DNA of 64,000 nt from Terriglobus albidus (lineage in GTDB: Bacteria; Acidobacteriota; Terriglobia; Terriglobales; Acidobacteriaceae). The stretch's first letter is position 1. Each line of letters starts with the position of its first letter. The stretch lies in the NCBI RefSeq assembly GCF_025685425.1, contig NZ_JAGTAS010000019.1, positions 1 to 64,000 on the forward strand, written 5' to 3'. A model generated the notes under the pieces. That model was not told the origin of the DNA. It saw nothing but the letters and a program-made list of their open reading frames with translations, and made no database searches. Below, in pieces: positions 16,021-57,735 of the stretch. The translations under genes and the position numbers were made by a program.

Positions 16021-16545
16021 TTGGGATAGAGAATTGGGTGCCCCATTCACGCACAGAGTGGGAGGGAGGCTTGAACGTGGCGAGCAAACGAGGAAAAGCG
16101 CTGAAGGCGCGCTCTATATCAGCCTGGGGCAACGCCCCAGGTCCTCGAGCACATTGAATGTCAAAGGGCTGAAGGCCCGCTCTATAGTTCCCAATCTAAA
16201 GTGAGTTTCGTCGACACAACGCAGGAGTCATATTCGTGTCAACTTTCAGGATTCTGTATGGAGAGAGGCAGGATTGGGCGCATTGAAAAGGAAGGTCTTT
16301 CACGATGTTCTGGATTCCCCTTACTGCAGAACTATAGGGCGGGCCTTCAGCCCTTTAAGATCTTGTCGATACCTAAACCTGGGGCGTTGCCCCAGGCTGA
16401 TATAGAGCGCGCCTTCAGCGCTTAGAGCTATGGGCTCTTTGTTTGTCATTTCGCAGCGACCAAGGGAGCTTAGAATCTGCTTTTTTATCTAACCCGGGTG
16501 ACCCACCTCGGGGTCCCCGACGAACTTGTTCGTTGGGGTGAACCC
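16021..16545. repeat. family A inverted-repeat pair, locus 1, plus a family D unit
   Basis: No gene. The left arm (16097-16190) reads AGCGCTGAAGGCGCG, then CCTGGGGCAACGCCCCAGG, then GGGCTGAAGGCCCGCTCTATA. The right arm (16334-16423) is the inverted order TATAGGGCGGGCCTTCAGCCC, CCTGGGGCGTTGCCCCAGG, GCGCGCCTTCAGCGCTT. About 145 bases of unrelated sequence lie between. From 16443 GTTTGTCATTTCGCAGCGA appears, and from 16495 a family D unit ends at the next gene. The gap separates two converging genes. Confidence 0.8.
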
Positions 16546-23889: not shown

Positions 23890-24005
23890 CTAGAGCATTT
23901 TCCCTGTTGCCGGGTATTCCGGAAGAAGAGTGCAGCGGCGTTTTCATTGCGGAAAACGCCCATAAATGCGGAAGCCCTGCTTTACACCTACAGGGAACAT
24001 GCTCC
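23890..24005 (+). repeat. family E composite hairpin forming the M50 gene leader
   Basis: A full-length copy. The left arm TAGAGCATTTTCCCTGTTG (23891-23909) pairs with the right arm CTACAGGGAACATGCTCC (23988-24005). An internal perfect palindrome, GCGTTTTCATTGCGGAAAACGC, lies at 23938-23959. The right arm ends at the base before the ATG of the M50 protease (24006), so its AGGGAA is the presumed ribosome binding site and is paired inside the hairpin. Confidence 0.85.
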
Positions 24006-25043
24006 ATGAGCGCCGGGCTGCTGGATCAGGCCGGTGCAGATCACGTGCATGCAGATCACGTCGATACACCTGTCCTTAAAGCTCCGTCAGCAAATGTTGC
24101 GCGACGTCCGGCATCCTCACCCATCTGGGTGCATCTACTGTTGTTTCTCTTGACTCTGTTCACGACCACAGCGCTCGGTATGCGTTACATGGTCAACTTC
24201 AACCAGGGTAAGCCGCCGCTAACGAGCAACGAAGATATCGTTCCGCACCTGTGGATCGCAGGACATCTGAATCTTCTGCCGCTGGGTTTGCCGTTCTCCC
24301 TGACGCTTCTGGCTATCCTTCTGGCGCACGAGTTCGCGCACTATGCGGCCTGCCGTTATGTGGGTGTGCGTGCCTCGCTGCCGTATCTACTGCCCGCGCC
24401 GACGCTGAGCGGCACGGTGGGCGCCGTGATCCGGTTGCGCTCGCGCATGCGCTCCCGCAAGGCGCTGCTGTTGATTGGAGCTTCGGGTCCGATAGCCGGC
24501 TTTCTGGTTGCGATCGTCACGACCTGGATTGGCCTGGCAAACTCCAGGCCGGAGCCGGCGGTACCGACTCCTTCGATCGTCCAGTTCAATCCACCCTTGC
24601 TGCTGCAGATCTTTCATGTGCTGGTGCAGGGGACGAATCACTCGCTGCCGGATATCTATAACATCGTTCCGCACCCGATGGTGGTGGCGAGCTGGGTTGG
24701 CGTACTGATCACGGCCGTCAATCTCATTCCTGCCGGACAGCTCGATGGCGGCCATATTCTTTATGCCATCTCTCCCAAAGCGCACCAGATCGGCACGCAG
24801 ATCACCATTGGTGTGCTTGCGCTGCTGGGAACCGTTTATTGGATCGGTTGGCTGTTGTGGGCGATGCTGCTGATGCTGCCCGCGATGAAGCATCCCAATG
24901 TTCCGCTGGATGACGAGATGAAGCCCTGGCAGGTTGGCGTGATTGCCGTCTGCGGCATGATCTTCCTGCTCTGTTTCTCGCTGCAGCCCTTTGCCAACGC
25001 AAGCCTGGTGGCGGAGTTCTCGCGTATTACGTGGGGACGATAG
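24006..25043 (+). CDS. site-2-type M50 membrane metalloprotease
   Basis: Predicted intramembrane zinc protease of 345 residues. The catalytic HEFAHY lies in a membrane segment at residues 108-113, and the second zinc ligand is Asp in NLIPAGQLDGGH (239-250). Five to seven hydrophobic segments are visible, including one before the catalytic helix (about 40-62) and three in the C-terminal third. It has no PDZ domain, so it belongs to the short FtsH-independent type rather than RseP. The start at 24006 is directly behind a family E hairpin; the longer frame from 23907 runs through that hairpin and is rejected. The substrate is unknown. Confidence 0.88.
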   Translation: MSAGLLDQAGADHVHADHVDTPVLKAPSANVARRPASSPIWVHLLLFLLTLFTTTALGMRYMVNFNQGKPPLTSNEDIVPHLWIAGHLNLLPLGLPFSLTLLAILLAHEFAHYAACRYVGVRASLPYLLPAPTLSGTVGAVIRLRSRMRSRKALLLIGASGPIAGFLVAIVTTWIGLANSRPEPAVPTPSIVQFNPPLLLQIFHVLVQGTNHSLPDIYNIVPHPMVVASWVGVLITAVNLIPAGQLDGGHILYAISPKAHQIGTQITIGVLALLGTVYWIGWLLWAMLLMLPAMKHPNVPLDDEMKPWQVGVIAVCGMIFLLCFSLQPFANASLVAEFSRITWGR

Positions 25044-25502
25044 GGCGTCAACTACTCGCTCCACCCGGACGTCGCGAGGGTGGAGCACCCCACAAAAGTT
25101 GCCAGATCTGAGCGCTGAAGGCGCGTTCCATACCAGCCTAGGGCAACGCCCTAGGTCTTAAGTCAAAAGAGGAACAAAAGGGCTGAAGGCCCGCTCCATA
25201 CTTCTCAAGCGAATTTGTTGAAGAATTTGCGAAAGATTATCCCTCCGCACTCAGGCGGTGATAATTGCCGACGATCCCGCGCGTGAATAGGGAGAACGCG
25301 CTCTCTACCGTGTACGGATGTAATAGCCACGGCGGCAATGACAAATCATATCTAGAACTATAGAGCGGGCCTTCAGCCCTTTAACATCTTGTGGACACCG
25401 AAACCTGGGGCGATGCCCCAGGCTGGTATAGAACGCGCCTTCAGCGCTCTATTGCCTGCTCGAACAAAGTATGGGCTACGTCGAACTCGCCGCTAGTGCC
25501 GA
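25044..25502. repeat. family A pair, locus 2, in a convergent gap
   Basis: No gene. A family D-like unit lies at 25057-25092. The family A left arm runs 25111-25202 (AGCGCTGAAGGCGCG, CCTAGGGCAACGCCCTAGG, GGGCTGAAGGCCCGCTCCATA) and the inverted right arm 25358-25448. The left-arm central hairpin has CCTAGGGC/GCCCTAGG where other copies have CCTGGGGC/GCCCCAGG, a paired change that keeps the stem. Confidence 0.8.
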
Positions 25503-29586: not shown

Positions 29587-29712
29587 AGGCTCGGGCGTTT
29601 CCCTGTCGGTGTAGTGTAGAGCTTCCGTATCCTATCGACCGGGTGTTTTCCGCAATGAAAAACGCGTTGCCCGAACCCTTTTGGGAAACCCAGCAACAGG
29701 GAAACGCTCTAG
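29587..29712 (-). repeat. family E composite hairpin between yajQ and the 95-residue gene
   Basis: On the minus strand the element starts with the yajQ stop TAG (29709-29711) and ends at the base before the ATG of the next gene (29586). The arms GCGTTTCCCTGT (plus strand 29595-29606) and ACAGGGAAACGC (29696-29707) are perfectly complementary over 12 bases. An inner palindrome GTTTTCCGCAATGAAAAAC lies at about 29644-29662. It matches the architecture of the copies at 23890 and 31321. Confidence 0.85.
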
Positions 29713-30209
29713 TTCGAGCGATAGTTGGTGAACTGCAGGTCGATGCCCAGGTCTTTGCCGCGCAGCAGAGCGATGATGTCCTGTAACACGTCGCGGTCCT
29801 TGGAGGCGATGCGGACGGTATCGCCCTGGATGGAGGCCTGAGCCTTCTTCTTGGAGTCCTTGATCAGGGCAACAATCTGTTTGGCTTTCTCGGAGGGGAT
29901 GCCCTGCTGCAGCTTGATCTTCTGCCGGGCCGATCCGTGCGAGCCTTGCTCGATCTTTTCAAAGTTCAGGTTCTTGAGGGAGATGCCGCGCTTCACCAGC
30001 TTCTGCTGCAGGATCTCGCTGACCGCCTTCAGCTTGTACTCGTCCGCGGCGGCGGTCTGGACCACGTCCTGACCTTCAAGGGCGATCTCACCCTTCGCGT
30101 CCTTCAGATCGAAGCGGGCCTTTACTTCTTTCAACGCCTGTTCAATGGCGTTCCGTACTTCCTGGATATCTACTTTGCTGACAACATCAAACGAGTTCTC
30201 GCCTGCCAT
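29709..30209 (-). CDS. yajQ: YajQ-family nucleotide-binding protein
   Basis: Small two-domain ferredoxin-like protein of 166 residues. Family hallmarks: NSFDVVSKVDIQEVRNAIEQALKE at the start, ARFDLKDAKGEI, KLVKRGISLKNLNF, KIKLQQGIPSEKAKQIVALIKDSKKKAQASIQGD and RIASKDRDVLQDIIALLRGKDLGIDLQFTNYR at the end (read in segments). Some YajQ homologues bind cyclic di-GMP and act as effectors, which would fit the diguanylate cyclase at 6927; that link is inference. The ribosome site ACGGAG lies between the MITE and the ATG. Confidence 0.94.
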   Translation of the reverse strand: MAGENSFDVVSKVDIQEVRNAIEQALKEVKARFDLKDAKGEIALEGQDVVQTAAADEYKLKAVSEILQQKLVKRGISLKNLNFEKIEQGSHGSARQKIKLQQGIPSEKAKQIVALIKDSKKKAQASIQGDTVRIASKDRDVLQDIIALLRGKDLGIDLQFTNYRSN

Positions 30210-30224: not shown

Positions 30225-30495
30225 CTAGGGTGTGTCATCAAACTCCTGCCGCCAGCGCCGGGAGCAGATTTTTCTGAGCTCTAGGAGTGAGGAGAGAACT
30301 GTAGCTGGCCTACTGGAACGACGAGTGACGAAGAGATCGGGAAAATCTGCCCCGGCCCTGCGGGTTGCGGCGCAAATTCTCCCATACTTCGTTGTCGTCC
30401 TCGACTGTGGACCCGCCACAGCCTTCGGCCTCCGCCTCGTCTGGATCAATTTGCGCTCGCAACGCTGGCGACAGGAGTTTGATGACACACCCTAG
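30225..30495. mobile_element. MITE-like element with 33-nt terminal inverted repeats
   Basis: A 271-bp element without a transposase. The ends 30225-30257 and 30463-30495 are inverted copies of each other with one mismatch in 33 bases; each begins CTAGGGTGTGTCATCAAAC. Two inner stems are present, GCAGATTTT/AAAATCTGC (30264-30349) and GCGCAAATT/AATTTGCGC (30370-30456), so one strand can fold into a three-way junction. CTAG at both outer ends may be the target duplication or part of the repeat. It separates tatD and yajQ, and its right end contains the tatD stop. No second copy was noticed in the window. Confidence 0.85.
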
Positions 30496-31319
30496 CTTAC
30501 GCCAAAGATGCGCCGGAAGTTGGCGGTCGTCGCCTGGGCAAAATCCTCCGGCGTCAGCCCGCGAGCGGCGGCGATGGCGGCGGCGGTGTACGCCGTGTAG
30601 GCGGGTTCGTTGCGCTGGCCGCGGTGGGGAATCGGAGCCAGATAAGGGGCATCGGTCTCCACCAGAATGCGGTCCAACGGAGTCGAGATAGCCACAGCCA
30701 TCAGGTCCTTGGATTTCGGGAAGGTCGTGTGTCCTGCGAAAGAGAGGACGAAGTTGTTTTTAAGGCTTCGGTCGGCGTGCTGCTGTGTTCCGCTGAAGCA
30801 GTGCATGACGCCGGTGATGTCGTGCGGTGTCCAGTGCTCTTCGATCAGGGCGAAGAGATCATTCCACACATCCAGACCAGGGAAGTTCGGGGTGCCGTCG
30901 TTGGGGCGGCAGTGGATCAGGATAGGCTTGCGCGCCGCCACGGCAATCTGCATCTGCCGTACGAAGCATGCCGCCTGAATCTCCGGTGCGGGTGACTCGG
31001 CGTGGTAGTAGTCCAGGCCAATCTCGCCGACGGCGATGCAGTTCGGATCCTGGACAAGCTGCTCCAGACGCGCATAGTCGGCCTGGGTGGCCTCATGTGC
31101 ATTGCCGGGGTAGATGCCGGCGCTGGCGTAGACAGCGGGCGTCGACGCGGTGGCAGGGCGAGCCAGCGCCAGGCCGTTGCCCATATACGCCGGGCCTTCG
31201 CCGATCCCGATGGTCAGGATGGTCCGGACGCCGGCGGCATGGGAGCGCGCCAGCACGGCGTCCAGATCCTCGGCAAAGCGAGGATTGTCCAGATGACAGT
31301 GCGAATCGACCAGATGCAT
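30492..31319 (-). CDS. tatD: TatD-family metal-dependent DNase
   Basis: Amidohydrolase-type nuclease of 275 residues. Metal ligands appear as HCH in VDSHCHLDNP at the start, Glu in VGEIGLDYYH, His in PILIHCRPN, His in GVMHCFSG and Asp in LVETDAPYLAP, in the family order. It starts at 31319 directly behind the family E hairpin, whose right arm supplies the AGGAG ribosome site ten bases upstream. The stop codon TAG falls within the CTAG terminus of the MITE. It follows metG in the same direction, an arrangement common in many bacteria. Confidence 0.94.
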   Translation of the reverse strand: MHLVDSHCHLDNPRFAEDLDAVLARSHAAGVRTILTIGIGEGPAYMGNGLALARPATASTPAVYASAGIYPGNAHEATQADYARLEQLVQDPNCIAVGEIGLDYYHAESPAPEIQAACFVRQMQIAVAARKPILIHCRPNDGTPNFPGLDVWNDLFALIEEHWTPHDITGVMHCFSGTQQHADRSLKNNFVLSFAGHTTFPKSKDLMAVAISTPLDRILVETDAPYLAPIPHRGQRNEPAYTAYTAAAIAAARGLTPEDFAQATTANFRRIFGVS

Positions 31320-31434
31320 GAGAGTAATTCTCCTAAAAGTGTAGAGCGGAGTTTTGGCTGTTTGCGCCGTTTTCCGCGAAGAAAACGGCATTCGCGGATT
31401 TATCCAACTCCACAGTATTAGGAGAATTGCTCTA
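31320..31434 (-). repeat. family E composite hairpin between metG and tatD
   Basis: On the minus strand it begins at the metG stop TAG (31432-31434) and ends at the tatD ATG. The outer arms are plus-strand AGAGTAATTCTCCTAA (31321-31336) and TTAGGAGAATTGCTCT (31418-31433), complementary at 15 of 16 positions. A perfect inner palindrome, GCCGTTTTCCGCG..AAAACGGC, lies at 31366-31389. Compared with other copies the outer stem sequence differs on both sides, so pairing is kept. The SD of tatD (AGGAG) lies in the paired right arm. Confidence 0.9.
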
Positions 31435-33561
31435 CTTCAGGCGTGCTCCCAGCGGCAGACTTTCGAGGAAGGTGGCCAGGTAGGGATGCCCGTGGTCGCC
31501 GATGCTGGCGGCCACAATCATGCCGTTCGACTCCAGACCACGCATCTTGCGGGGAGCGAGGTTCGCAACAATGACAACCGTCCGGCCGATGAGCTGTTCG
31601 GGCTCATAGAACTCGGCAATGCCGGAGAGGATCTGCCGTTGCTCGAAGCCCAGGTCTACCTGCAGCTTCAGCAGCTTGTCCGCCTTGGGAATGCGCTCCG
31701 CCGCGAGCACCTTGGCGACGCGCAGGTCGACCTTGGCGAAGTCGTCGATGGTGATGGTCTCGGCGATAGCGGGAATGCCGTTGGCATTCTCTGCGGGAGC
31801 AGCGGCCTGTGCAGGTGCAGAGACTTCGGCGACTGCTGTGGCGGCTTCGGTGGCAACGGGCTTCTGTTCGGTGTCAGTCATCTTCTGAATCAGTTCCTTG
31901 GGTGCGCGCGGGAAGATAGGAGCAAGCGTGCCCAGCTTCGTGCCCGGCTGTAGTCCGCCCCATTCGAGGTTTTTGAGTTCACCACTGTTGGCAGCCTCAG
32001 TCATTTGGCCGAGTCCGAGTTGCGCCCAGACCTTGCAGGTGGTGTAAGGGAGATAGGGATAGAGCGCCGCAGTCAGATGACGGATCGCTTCCGTCGCGCT
32101 GTACAGCACCTCGGCAAGCTGTTCCTTCTTGGTCTCGTCAGCCGCGAGCTTCCACGGTGCATTGGCCGTGATGTAGCCGTCGGTGACGGCGATCAGATTC
32201 CAGATCCGCTGCAGATGCGCGCCGAAGTCGTAATCGGTCGGGACATCGCCCAAGAGGGCTTCGCGGGGATGAGAACCCATCGTCTCAGTGTTCGAGATGT
32301 TCGGGACAATGCCCCCGAAGTACTTCTCAATCATTGCCAGGGTGCGGCTGACCAGGTTGCCGTAACCGTTGGCGAGGTCGGAGTTATAGCGCTGCACCAG
32401 CGCATCGAAGCTGAAGCTGCCATCCTGGCCGAAGGGAATCTCGCGCATCAGGAAGTAACGCAACACGTCGGTTCCGAAGAGGTCTTGCTCTTCCGGCGTA
32501 GCTTCGGGCTTCAGGCTGCCGAAGGCGTCCAGAATGGTCTCGGCGCGCACGATATTGCCGCGCGACTTGCTCATCTTGCTCTCTTCGAAGAGCAGCCACC
32601 CATGCGCCTGCACCATCTTCGGCAGCGGCAGACCGGCCGCCAGAAGGAAGGCCGGCCAGTAGATGCAGTGGAAGCGGATGATCTCTTTGCCGACGAGGTG
32701 GAGATCGGCGGGCCAGAACTTGTCGTAGTTCTCGCAACCTTCCTGCGCAAAGCCGAGAGCAGTCATGTAGTTTGCCAGGGCATCCAGCCAGACGTAGATG
32801 ACGTGCTTCTGCTTGCTCTCGGAGGCGGCGGGCTCAGGGACGGGAATGCCCCAGTCGAAACTGGAGCGGGAGATGGAAAGGTCCTTCAGCGCTCCGGGAA
32901 TATAGGCTGTGCCGGCGGCGGAGAGCTCTAGCGACTCGGCGGGTGCGGCGGCGACATTGCCGCGCAGGAAGCTCAGCACCTCGTTGCGGCGAGCTTCCGG
33001 CTCGACAGCGAAGCGGCCCGACTCAATGAGATCGATCAGCTGAAGCTGAAAGCCCGAGAGGCGGAAGTAGAAGTTCTCTTCGGTGACGGTCTCCAGCGGA
33101 CGTCCGCAGTCAGGGCAGGGCGTTCCCGGGGGGAGATCGACAAAGGCCTCGTCGGAGACGCAGTAGCTGCCGGTATAGCTGTCCAGATAGATGTGTCCGC
33201 CCTCGTAGAGACGGTTGAACAGCGCCTGCACGCCCTTAGCGTGGCGTTTCTCGGTGGTGCGGATGTAGTCGTTGTAGGTGATACCCATCCGGTCCCACAG
33301 GGCACGGAAGTTGGCCGAGACCTCGTCGGTAAACTGCTGCGGCGTAATGCCGGCGGCTGCGGCGGAGCGCTGGACCTTCTGGCCGTGCTCATCGGTGCCG
33401 GTAAGGAGGTAGACGTTGTCGTTGCCGCGCAACAGGCGCTGGCGGCGCGCAATCGTATCGGCCGCGAGCGTGGTGTAGGCATGGCCGATGTGCGGACGCG
33501 CATTGACGTAGTAGATCGGCGTGGTCAGGTAGAAGGTGCCGGGCTTGTGCTGGTCAGACAT
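31432..33561 (-). CDS. metG: methionyl-tRNA synthetase
   Basis: Class I aminoacyl-tRNA synthetase of 709 residues charging initiator and elongator tRNA-Met. The HIGH-type motif appears as PHIGHAYT near residue 23, and ESKMSKSRGNIV carries the KMSKS loop near 329-333. A CPDCGRPLE zinc knuckle lies in the connective domain. The C-terminal 120 residues are a separate tRNA-binding (EMAP/Trbp111) domain: IDDFAKVDLRVAKVLAAERIPKADKLLKL and LAPRKMRGLESNGMIVAA (read in segments). An Ala- and Glu-rich linker (about 570-600) joins it. Its stop codon is the first three bases of a family E element. Confidence 0.97.
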   Translation of the reverse strand: MSDQHKPGTFYLTTPIYYVNARPHIGHAYTTLAADTIARRQRLLRGNDNVYLLTGTDEHGQKVQRSAAAAGITPQQFTDEVSANFRALWDRMGITYNDYIRTTEKRHAKGVQALFNRLYEGGHIYLDSYTGSYCVSDEAFVDLPPGTPCPDCGRPLETVTEENFYFRLSGFQLQLIDLIESGRFAVEPEARRNEVLSFLRGNVAAAPAESLELSAAGTAYIPGALKDLSISRSSFDWGIPVPEPAASESKQKHVIYVWLDALANYMTALGFAQEGCENYDKFWPADLHLVGKEIIRFHCIYWPAFLLAAGLPLPKMVQAHGWLLFEESKMSKSRGNIVRAETILDAFGSLKPEATPEEQDLFGTDVLRYFLMREIPFGQDGSFSFDALVQRYNSDLANGYGNLVSRTLAMIEKYFGGIVPNISNTETMGSHPREALLGDVPTDYDFGAHLQRIWNLIAVTDGYITANAPWKLAADETKKEQLAEVLYSATEAIRHLTAALYPYLPYTTCKVWAQLGLGQMTEAANSGELKNLEWGGLQPGTKLGTLAPIFPRAPKELIQKMTDTEQKPVATEAATAVAEVSAPAQAAAPAENANGIPAIAETITIDDFAKVDLRVAKVLAAERIPKADKLLKLQVDLGFEQRQILSGIAEFYEPEQLIGRTVVIVANLAPRKMRGLESNGMIVAASIGDHGHPYLATFLESLPLGARLK

Positions 33562-33889
33562 GGTCAGTTGTTAAGGATAACCGGGTGGGAGGCAGAGACC
33601 GGGTCAGACAAACGTGTTTATCGGGGTGGAAGCGCTGAAGGCGCGTTCTATACCAGCCTGGGGCAACGCCCCAGGTACTTGGTTCACAGAAACACGAAGG
33701 GCTGAAAGCCCGCTCTATATTTCTGGAGACATGGATCCGATACATCCTTAAGAATGGATTGACTGGCTGTACTGACAAACTATAGATCGGGCCTTCAGCC
33801 CTCGCCCCTCATTGGAACGAAAACCTGGGGCGTTGCCCCAGGCTGGTATGGAGCGCGCCTTCAGCGCTTGGAATCATCAGGTACCCGCC
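33562..33889. repeat. family A pair, locus 3
   Basis: No gene. The left arm 33631-33720 and inverted right arm 33780-33869 are separated by only about 60 bases, the shortest spacer of the six family A loci. Each arm carries AGCGCTGAAGGCGCG, the CCTGGGGCAACGCCCCAGG hairpin and GGGCTGAA(A)GCCCGCTCTATA. The metG promoter, if any, should lie at 33562-33630. Confidence 0.8.
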
Positions 33890-52514: not shown

Positions 52515-53112
52515 ATTGATAGAACAAGCTGAACAGGTCCACACCTTTTAGAGTAGTTCTTTGAGGAACAGCTTTAGTTCGCTCCTGTGGCGCAAATGTA
52601 GAAGCGATCTCGCAGTGATCTATCGCGAAATGCGCGACCGTCTTGCTTAGCCTAAAGGAACGGCCTCAGCCCATTCTTTATTGCCAGAAAGATGTGTTGA
52701 GCGCTGAAGGCGCGACCTATACCAGCCTGGGCAACGCCCCAGGTACGGAGCCAGGAAACGGTAAGAGGGCTGAAGGCCCGATCTATAATCCCCAATCGTC
52801 AATCCACAATCGTCACAAAACGAAAGCGGTTCGTGAAATCGTTGTATGCCTAGAGCATTTTCCCTTGTCGCTGGATATGGGGGACCCTATTCTACGCCGA
52901 CAGGGAAATGCTCTATCGAAATGATACGGTCGGATAGAAGGCCCTCATATAGGGCGGGCCTTCAGCCCTTTAACATCTTGTGGGCGCCAAAACCTGGGGC
53001 GTTGCCCCAGGCTGGTATAGAACGCGCCTTCAGCGCTTCACTTCTCCGTACTAACTTCCCCGGATCCCTTATAGGGCATTCTGACGCGATCGTTTTCAGG
53101 GAAAATGCTCTC
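52515..53112. repeat. family A pair, locus 4, with family E copies
   Basis: No protein gene of recognisable family. The family A left arm is 52700-52786 and the inverted right arm 52947-53038. Between them sits a family E hairpin (52850-52916; TAGAGCATTTTCCCT/CAGGGAAATGCTCTA). After the family A right arm a lone family E right arm, CAGGGAAAATGCTCTC (53097-53112), abuts an ATG at 53113. The order suggests several insertions into one gap. Confidence 0.8.
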
Positions 53113-57252: not shown

Positions 57253-57735
57253 GCAGGATTGGGCGATGCGTGTGCGCGTTATCATCACCCGGAGTCCATA
57301 AATAAAGCGCTGAAGGCGCGTTCTATACCAGCCAGGGGCAACGCCCCAGGGTAGGAACGCACAAGATGTTAAGGGCTGAAGGCCCGCTCTATATAAAAGC
57401 CTTCAATCCCATGTGTATCGTCCATTGAATGCAATGCCATGTCTGGTGAGAAGGGCGCGGAATTCATTCTGAAGCGATATTTTTCGATTGGCATACAACG
57501 GTTTAACGAACCGTTTCGTTTGTGACGATTGGGGATTATAGGTCGGGCCTTCAGCCCTCTAACCGTTTAACTATCCTCAAACCTGGGGCGTTGCCCCAGG
57601 CTGGTATAGAGCGCGCCTTCAGCGCTCTTTCATCGACGGCTTGTATCTATACCGCCTGCGGCAATAGCTATTGGTTGGTGCAACCTCTAACACTTGGGTG
57701 ATGCCTGCTGCTATATATCTCCCTCAATCTCCTTA
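57253..57735. repeat. family A pair, locus 5, in a convergent gap
   Basis: No gene. Left arm 57306-57394 (AGCGCTGAAGGCGCG, GGGGCAACGCCCC, GGGCTGAAGGCCCGCTCTATA), inverted right arm 57536-57626. The spacer contains TTTGTGACGATTGGGGATTATA, which also stands before the right arm at 62907-62929, so part of the spacer is shared between loci 5 and 6. Confidence 0.8.

Follow-up and report, generated by a model that had tools for sequence, protein, structure and literature searches.

A hairpin between metG and tatD is very probably a TA-target MITE copy inserted into a stop/start overlap

How does a hairpin come to run exactly from the stop codon of one gene to the start codon of the next, and does it couple the translation of the two? 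The question is raised by the junction of two minus-strand genes, metG (methionyl-tRNA synthetase) and tatD, assigned by Pfam, in what we call the window, the whole 64-kb stretch of DNA analysed (Table 1). The initial annotation had described a stop-to-start hairpin at this junction, with the tatD Shine–Dalgarno (SD) sequence hidden in its right arm, and both coordinates and folding bear this out. The hairpin opens with the three bases of the metG stop TAG, its final base abuts the tatD ATG, and the sequence folds with an MFE of −47.5 kcal/mol, compared with a shuffle mean of −22.5 (z = −7.5), a stability that none of 200 shuffles equalled. The 26-nt arms are 85% complementary, and the AGGAG of the right arm is masked in the fold by CTCCT in the left arm. 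The inner palindrome lies close to the position first given for it, 31366–31389. At the gathering threshold, no Rfam match was found at the metG–tatD locus. The kinship noted with other copies also holds: two copies with the stem TTTTCCCTG/CAGGGAAA are present in the window, one of which is decayed at one end and supplies the stop codon of a PF04461 gene that we take to encode YajQ.

Table 1. Coordinates of the metG–tatD junction, of the related copies and of the Acido-Lenti-1 matches in the window
Feature	Position	Strand	Basis
Hairpin, stop codon to last base before the start codon	31320..31434	-	fold
Hairpin arms, 26 nt each	31321..31346 / 31408..31433	-	fold
Hairpin's final base	31320	-	
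Inserted family-A element, 111 bp, GAGCAATTCTCC...GGAGAATTACTC, terminal inverted repeats	31322..31432	-	filled vs empty site in G002, G015, G017, G012
Target TA, 5′ copy (TA of the metG stop)	31433..31434	-	single TA at empty site
Target duplication, 3′ copy, now TC, not TA	31320..31321	-	filled vs empty site
metG stop TAG; G from the element (relatives TAA)	31432..31434	-	comparison with relatives
CTCCT, left arm, pairs with presumed SD	31420..31424	-	fold
AGGAG, right arm, presumed tatD SD, 10 nt before ATG	31330..31334	-	anti-SD duplex −7.3 kcal/mol
Element's inner palindrome	about 31365..31390	-	fold
metG coding sequence	31432..33561	-	PF09334, PF01588
tatD coding sequence	30492..31319	-	start common to relatives; PF01026
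tatD ATG	31317..31319	-	
Family-B copy	23891..24006	+	sequence match
Family-B copy, decayed at one end	about 29594..29711	-	
TAG of this copy, stop of the PF04461 gene	29709..29711	-	Pfam
PF04461 gene	29709..30209	-	Pfam
Acido-Lenti-1 inverted pair	16097..16422		Rfam
Acido-Lenti-1 inverted pair	25111..25448		Rfam
Acido-Lenti-1 inverted pair	33631..33868		Rfam
Acido-Lenti-1 match	52993..53037		Rfam
Acido-Lenti-1 match	57582..57626		Rfam

The further suggestion that the hairpin is a device belonging to the metG–tatD pair did not survive comparison with relatives. In G015, G002 and G017, whose TatD proteins are 97%, 95% and 82% identical to that of the window, the junction reads ...AAGTAATGCA..., with the metG TAA overlapping the tatD ATG. 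G012 likewise has TAATG without a hairpin, giving four relatives with the empty site ...AAGTAATG.... Since the hairpin is absent from the TAATG junction of all four, it arrived by insertion. In the window, 111 bp (GAGCAATTC...ACTC) sit at the TA of the empty site, and the second TA reads TC; the element would thus have entered the TA of the 1-nt stop/start overlap and duplicated it. The first base of the element is G, which turned the metG stop from TAA into TAG where it stood and left the protein the same, as well as the tatD ATG. At the opposite end of the element AGGAG lies ten bases from the target, so that tatD received a new, well-spaced SD-like sequence. The insertion, the stop codon change and the new AGGAG are read directly from the filled and empty sites.

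The inserted sequence belongs to a dispersed repeat. When its own genome (G000; 6.1 Mb, 58 contigs) was searched by BLAST with the hairpin stretch, scoring 40 of 59 candidates gave at least 79 matches, a figure that includes split pieces and hits on either strand, and a covariance model built from 22 copies gave at least 135 matches at E ≤ 0.1, again on both strands. Because 150 of 2352 candidates were scored in one copy search and 150 of 2256 in the other, the copy counts are minima. Examination of the surroundings of 90 G000 copies placed 34 in a family A, with ends TAGAGCAATTCTCCTAA...TTAGGAGAATTGCTCTA, and 56 in a family B, with ends TAGAGCATTTTCCCTG...CAGGGAAAATGCTCTA (30 + 59 loci; the counts leave out L110, L157, L158 and L296–L298, and take tandem arrays once, as for L076, or as two units, as for L098). 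In G002, 80 copies were examined (24 A, 56 B), and the window holds one family-A and two family-B copies. Among 61 genomes, scanned under stricter filters with no more than 60 candidates scored in each, eight had a match at E ≤ 0.001. Four of these, all of one genus, carry dozens (at least 53 in G000, 55 in G002, 54 in G012 and 58 in G015), and the four others one to three. Occupied sites differ among the species with dozens of copies. A scan of genome contigs, from which the window's own genome may be missing, gave two carriers of an exact 23-mer, the MAGs Bin6.3 (JABFXN01) and SH_60_12 (JAEKKE01) (loci L166–L176).

Insertion at TA could be followed well beyond metG–tatD. Joined flanks were used as empty-site queries for 48 of 49 prepared sites, namely 32 of the 34 family-A copies (all except L013 and L118) and 16 family-B stop copies. 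This gave 36 filled/empty comparisons over 26 sites in G002 and G015, with a single TA at the junction in 29 and none, or an ambiguous one, in seven. Among copies with TA at the end concerned, C precedes the TA in 31 of 65 and G follows it in 34 of 74, a CTAG-like preference. The empty sites of L004 and L014 have CA, TC or AA at the junction, which could reflect non-TA targets or later mutation.

We conclude with high confidence that the metG–tatD hairpin is a copy of a TA-target MITE inserted into the stop/start overlap. This class is indicated by the TA target, duplicated relative to the empty sites, by terminal inverted repeats, by species-specific occupancy and probably by IS630-type transposons of relatives with matching ends (TA-GAGCATTTTC). 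The element is also short, encodes no protein, and is multicopy and dispersed. Its 17-nt end arms are paired in 91.1% of alignment cells in family A (22 copies aligned) and 95.4% in family B (49 copies aligned). The IS630-type transposase domain PF13358 is present in 19 of the 61 genomes, and three of 30 inspected loci had TA-flanked inverted ends starting GAGC: L177, from the same genus, with GAGCATTTTC at both ends; L178, from the same family, with GAGCATTTTCGATTTAAG at both ends; and L161, from G015, with ends GAGCA. The start of family B, GAGCATTTTCCCTG, equals the L177/L178 ends GAGCATTTTC over 10 nt, and the match of family A to IS630 ends is limited to GAGCA. Ends of the GAGCATTTTC type were found in G014 and G030, and the transposases of L177, L178 and L161 are 37–50% identical to one another. 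An IS630-type transposase with GAGCATTTTC-like ends may therefore mobilise the repeats in trans. No autonomous partner with matching ends was seen in the own genome among its two PF13358 matches, which we rejected as drivers on both their ends (TTGATTCCTG) and their sequence; the second is cut by a contig end and matches the TTGATTCCTG type at 92% over 251 bases.

Several described repeats resemble the element in kind. According to the excerpted text of PMC2229807, RUP of Streptococcus pneumoniae (107 bp, IS630-Spn1) is similar in length, TA target and IS630-like terminal repeats, but belongs to a different phylum, and these excerpts mention no stop or SD role. ERIC/IRU of enterobacteria (RU-1, 127 bp) shares TA ends with duplication and a stable stem–loop, and is co-transcribed with its neighbours in Yersinia (excerpts of PMC2759123 and PMC2229807); its reported effect is on mRNA stability and depends on orientation, whereas our element has no clear orientation preference. 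Both likenesses are of description. BOX of S. pneumoniae encodes gene stop codons too, at 36 CDS ends (PMC3049150, in part), but is built of boxA/boxC modules, while here the empty sites show the stop position unchanged at base level. REP was rejected on size, with a unit of 20–40 bp (PMC3733652, in part) against the 111 bp inserted. The portions consulted of a MITE review (PMC10969869) name neither stop codons nor Shine–Dalgarno sequences, and at title and abstract level the literature on palindromic repeats, MITEs and Acidobacteria yielded no description of these families. The element is ordinary in kind, and new as a family as far as the literature was searched.

The initial annotation also expected a preference for stop-to-start positions. 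Stop codons are indeed favoured: the element's terminal TAG is the stop codon of a gene in 30 of 90 G000 copies (13/34 in A, 17/56 in B) and in 28 of 80 G002 copies (7/24 and 21/56), at least three of the 28 at sites common to G000. As a null, the one 64-kb window has 36 stop TAs to 425 intergenic TAs (7.8%, rising to 8.9% with weighting for the flanking bases), against which the excess is significant in G000 (binomial p = 4e-12 and 9e-11) and in G002 (p = 1e-10 vs 8.9%). Genes were called with a codon-score caller trained on 27 window ORFs, which leaves starts uncertain and missed at least two tight G002 junctions. Relative to TAs 1–30 nt downstream of stops, however, the preference is only about 2-fold (58:30 observed, 36:39 in the window; pooled odds ratio 2.09, p = 0.026; single genomes p = 0.09 and 0.056). 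Most of the excess can be tolerance, because in tightly packed DNA no harmless TA is as common as that of a stop codon. Empty sites were read for 18 stop copies: ten have TAA as the stop codon (L001, L007, L023, L030, L063, L072, L081, L082, L109 and L116), seven have TAG and one, L091, has TGA; at the L030 and L109 empty sites, one of two relatives has TAG. Copies at stops ran with the gene in 14 cases and against it in 16 in G000, and in 9 and 19 in G002 (pooled 23 and 35, p = 0.15), showing none of the fixed orientation that would mark a cis-regulatory RNA.

We then modelled what the insertion means for tatD. The new SD region binds the anti-SD with the energy given in Table 1 and has a 9-nt spacer, compared with −6.5 (G015, G002) or −5.8 kcal/mol (G017) and a 12-nt spacer at the empty sites. 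In the folded element, AGGAG has a mean unpaired probability of 0.0003 and an opening cost of 15.5–16 kcal/mol; with the first 15 nt from the stop blocked, the cost is 3.5–3.7 kcal/mol and the unpaired probability only 0.26. The SD of the empty site is also structured, with opening costs of 8.3 (G015) and 6.2 kcal/mol (G002). These predicted energies, 16 to 3.5 kcal/mol, would allow a ribosome-dependent unmasking of the SD, which makes coupling possible: the transcribed palindrome would mask AGGAG, a ribosome ending metG would unmask it, and the old overlap coupling may be replaced by a hairpin-dependent one. As far as such folding models can tell, real coupling of metG and tatD by the hairpin is conceivable, though we rather doubt it. 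Freeing of a masked ribosome-binding site by an upstream ribosome has precedents in rpmI–rplT (at +52 nt) and MS2 coat–lysis, but at metG–tatD the unfolding is a prediction and the arrangement arose by insertion into TAATG; the excerpts of PMC12548453 that describe these cases also report that structure just after the stop correlated with less coupling.

The modelled drop is not peculiar to this junction. Calling a copy tight when one of its ends provides a stop and the opposite end lies no more than 3 nt from a start, we found the same behaviour in the five other tight G000 copies (L006, L022, L023, L027 and L081; 10–15 falling to 1–4 kcal/mol with blocking) and in five longer-gap copies (L007, L009, L011, L021 and L030; 10–16 falling to 0–4 kcal/mol). 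Because the non-tight copies show it too, the drop is a property of the repeat and not of the metG–tatD junction; a coupling device here is possibly a by-product of insertion and not the element's origin. The six tight G000 pairs are metG–tatD, MlaE–ABC ATPase, unnamed–DHH, ABC ATPase–PhoU, MFS–MFS and FAD-oxidase_C–FAD_binding_4, and all six copies have an AGGAG outgoing end, which 16 of the 30 stop copies have. In a comparison chosen after the data were seen, AGGAG ends were nearer the next start in G000 (Mann–Whitney p = 0.028; 15 vs 10 copies with a same-strand downstream gene); the same test in G002 gave p = 0.20 (9 vs 11). The gene caller marked none of the 28 G002 stop copies as tight, but two that it missed are tight and occupy sites common to G000, L264 (gap 3, AGGAG) and L226 (gap 0, AGGAA, at the L022 site), the latter state being found in G015 as well. 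Since L226 has an AGGAA end, entry into a tight junction does not require AGGAG. Selection of AGGAG ends, suggested in G000, was thus not repeated in G002 and is contradicted by L226/L286.

Paired changes in the stem had been taken as covariation. Both sides do change together between families A and B, but covariation is not supported within family A, and within B the signal comes mainly from one pair. For family A, the RNAalifold covariation term was +0.35, and the 17-pair end stem had 3 two-sided cells among 372, reached by 28 of 500 shuffles and so weakly above them; we rejected covariation as evidence for an RNA device in this family. Family B had a term of −0.48 and 21 of 820 two-sided cells, exceeding 500 of 500 shuffles. 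Fifteen of the 21 came from one column pair (CG 32, UA 15) and three from its neighbour, and the CG to UA switch amounts to 5–6 changes at best on a core-column tree, whose well-supported branches force only one. Covariation beyond relatedness, as expected of a cis-regulatory RNA, was not found in family A, and in family B the main pair may go back to a single origin. Nor does the family-B signal speak for an RNA device, because matching transposon ends at the DNA level would look alike.

At four sites the same TA holds different families in different genomes: L020, L022, L026 and L027 are family A in G000 and family B in a relative (L282, L226/L286, L283/L284 and L285/L295, respectively). The flanks are 92–96% identical and the elements 64–72%, compared with 86–97% for orthologous copies of the same family, and by consensus alignment the two elements have one common orientation at each of the four sites. 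A swap within family B was seen for L107 (vs L287/L288; elements 79–80% identical). The family-B copy at the L020 site is decayed at one end, and for L021 the right junction alone is common, the left junction in G015 lying at another TA. By a rough hand estimate from the window's TA density, fewer than 0.5 chance coincidences are expected (Poisson p about 1e-3 for four). The swapped sites would be explained either by repeated insertion at preferred TAs or by replacement of the resident element. An extra small hairpin (CCCAGCGAAC..GTTCGCTGGG type) occurs at a similar position in the arm in nine of the 34 family-A copies (L021, L022, L024, L026, L027, L028, L116, L117 and L118); three of the four swapped A copies are among eight tested with this inner hairpin and one among 24 without (Fisher p = 0.039).

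How do other readings of the locus fare against these data? A dedicated cis-regulatory RNA that couples metG and tatD, its structure kept by selection, would account for the masked SD, the stop at the stem base and the large drop in opening cost once the left arm is covered, and the six tight copies sit in gene pairs of which several look operon-like. Yet the hairpin is absent from four relatives, the object is a dispersed repeat, its direction shows no clear preference and family A no covariation, which leaves this reading very unlikely. An intrinsic transcription terminator, or a repeat that carries a promoter, is hardly credible: the strong hairpin after a gene end would suit a terminator, but a consensus scan of 31200–31560 gave no terminator-like and no promoter-like site, and the inner stem is followed by GCAAAC with no T run.

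Closer to the MITE itself is the idea of a portable intercistronic cassette, the ends of which (inward TAG, outward AGGAG) spare both genes and the copies of which are kept for coupling. The AGGAG outgoing ends of all six tight G000 copies, the shorter distance of such ends to the next start in that genome and the in-place TAA to TAG conversions agree with it, while the G002 distance test and the tight copy with AGGAA do not; we consider it improbable. In its fullest form, such a mobile cassette would enter TAA/TAG stops (also TAATG/TAGTG overlaps) in either direction, leave the upstream protein as it was, and keep an outgoing SD hidden in its stem until a ribosome terminating at the stop released it for the following gene; occupied junctions would be kept while the resident element gave way to one of another family at that TA. 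This, too, we think unlikely.

On the MITE reading, the sites give base-exact before and after states in which a mobile repeat enters a 1-nt stop/start overlap, among the tightest of gene junctions, leaves the upstream protein unchanged and supplies an SD-like sequence. Reinitiation is reported to fail almost completely once stop and start are even some 20 nt apart (PMC10666635), so that these sites are natural experiments in which a single gene pair either carries or lacks a 111-nt hairpin. If SD unmasking works, coupling is installable by transposition; if it fails, operons tolerate the loss of coupling. Either outcome is testable on the metG–tatD, ABC ATPase–PhoU and FAD oxidase pairs.

Copies also meet one another. 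Family-B head-to-tail tandems with a common TA-containing junction occur at L076, L098, L105, L108, L110, L114 and L120, that of L076 consisting of three units of about 114 bp. At L013 (1499–1614) a family-A copy is nested within a family-B copy, and at L003 and L012 family A adjoins family B. The window further contains eight Rfam Acido-Lenti-1 matches, six of which form three inverted pairs spanning 238–338 bp (Table 1); the paired matches look more like the termini of a further dispersed element than like separate RNAs.
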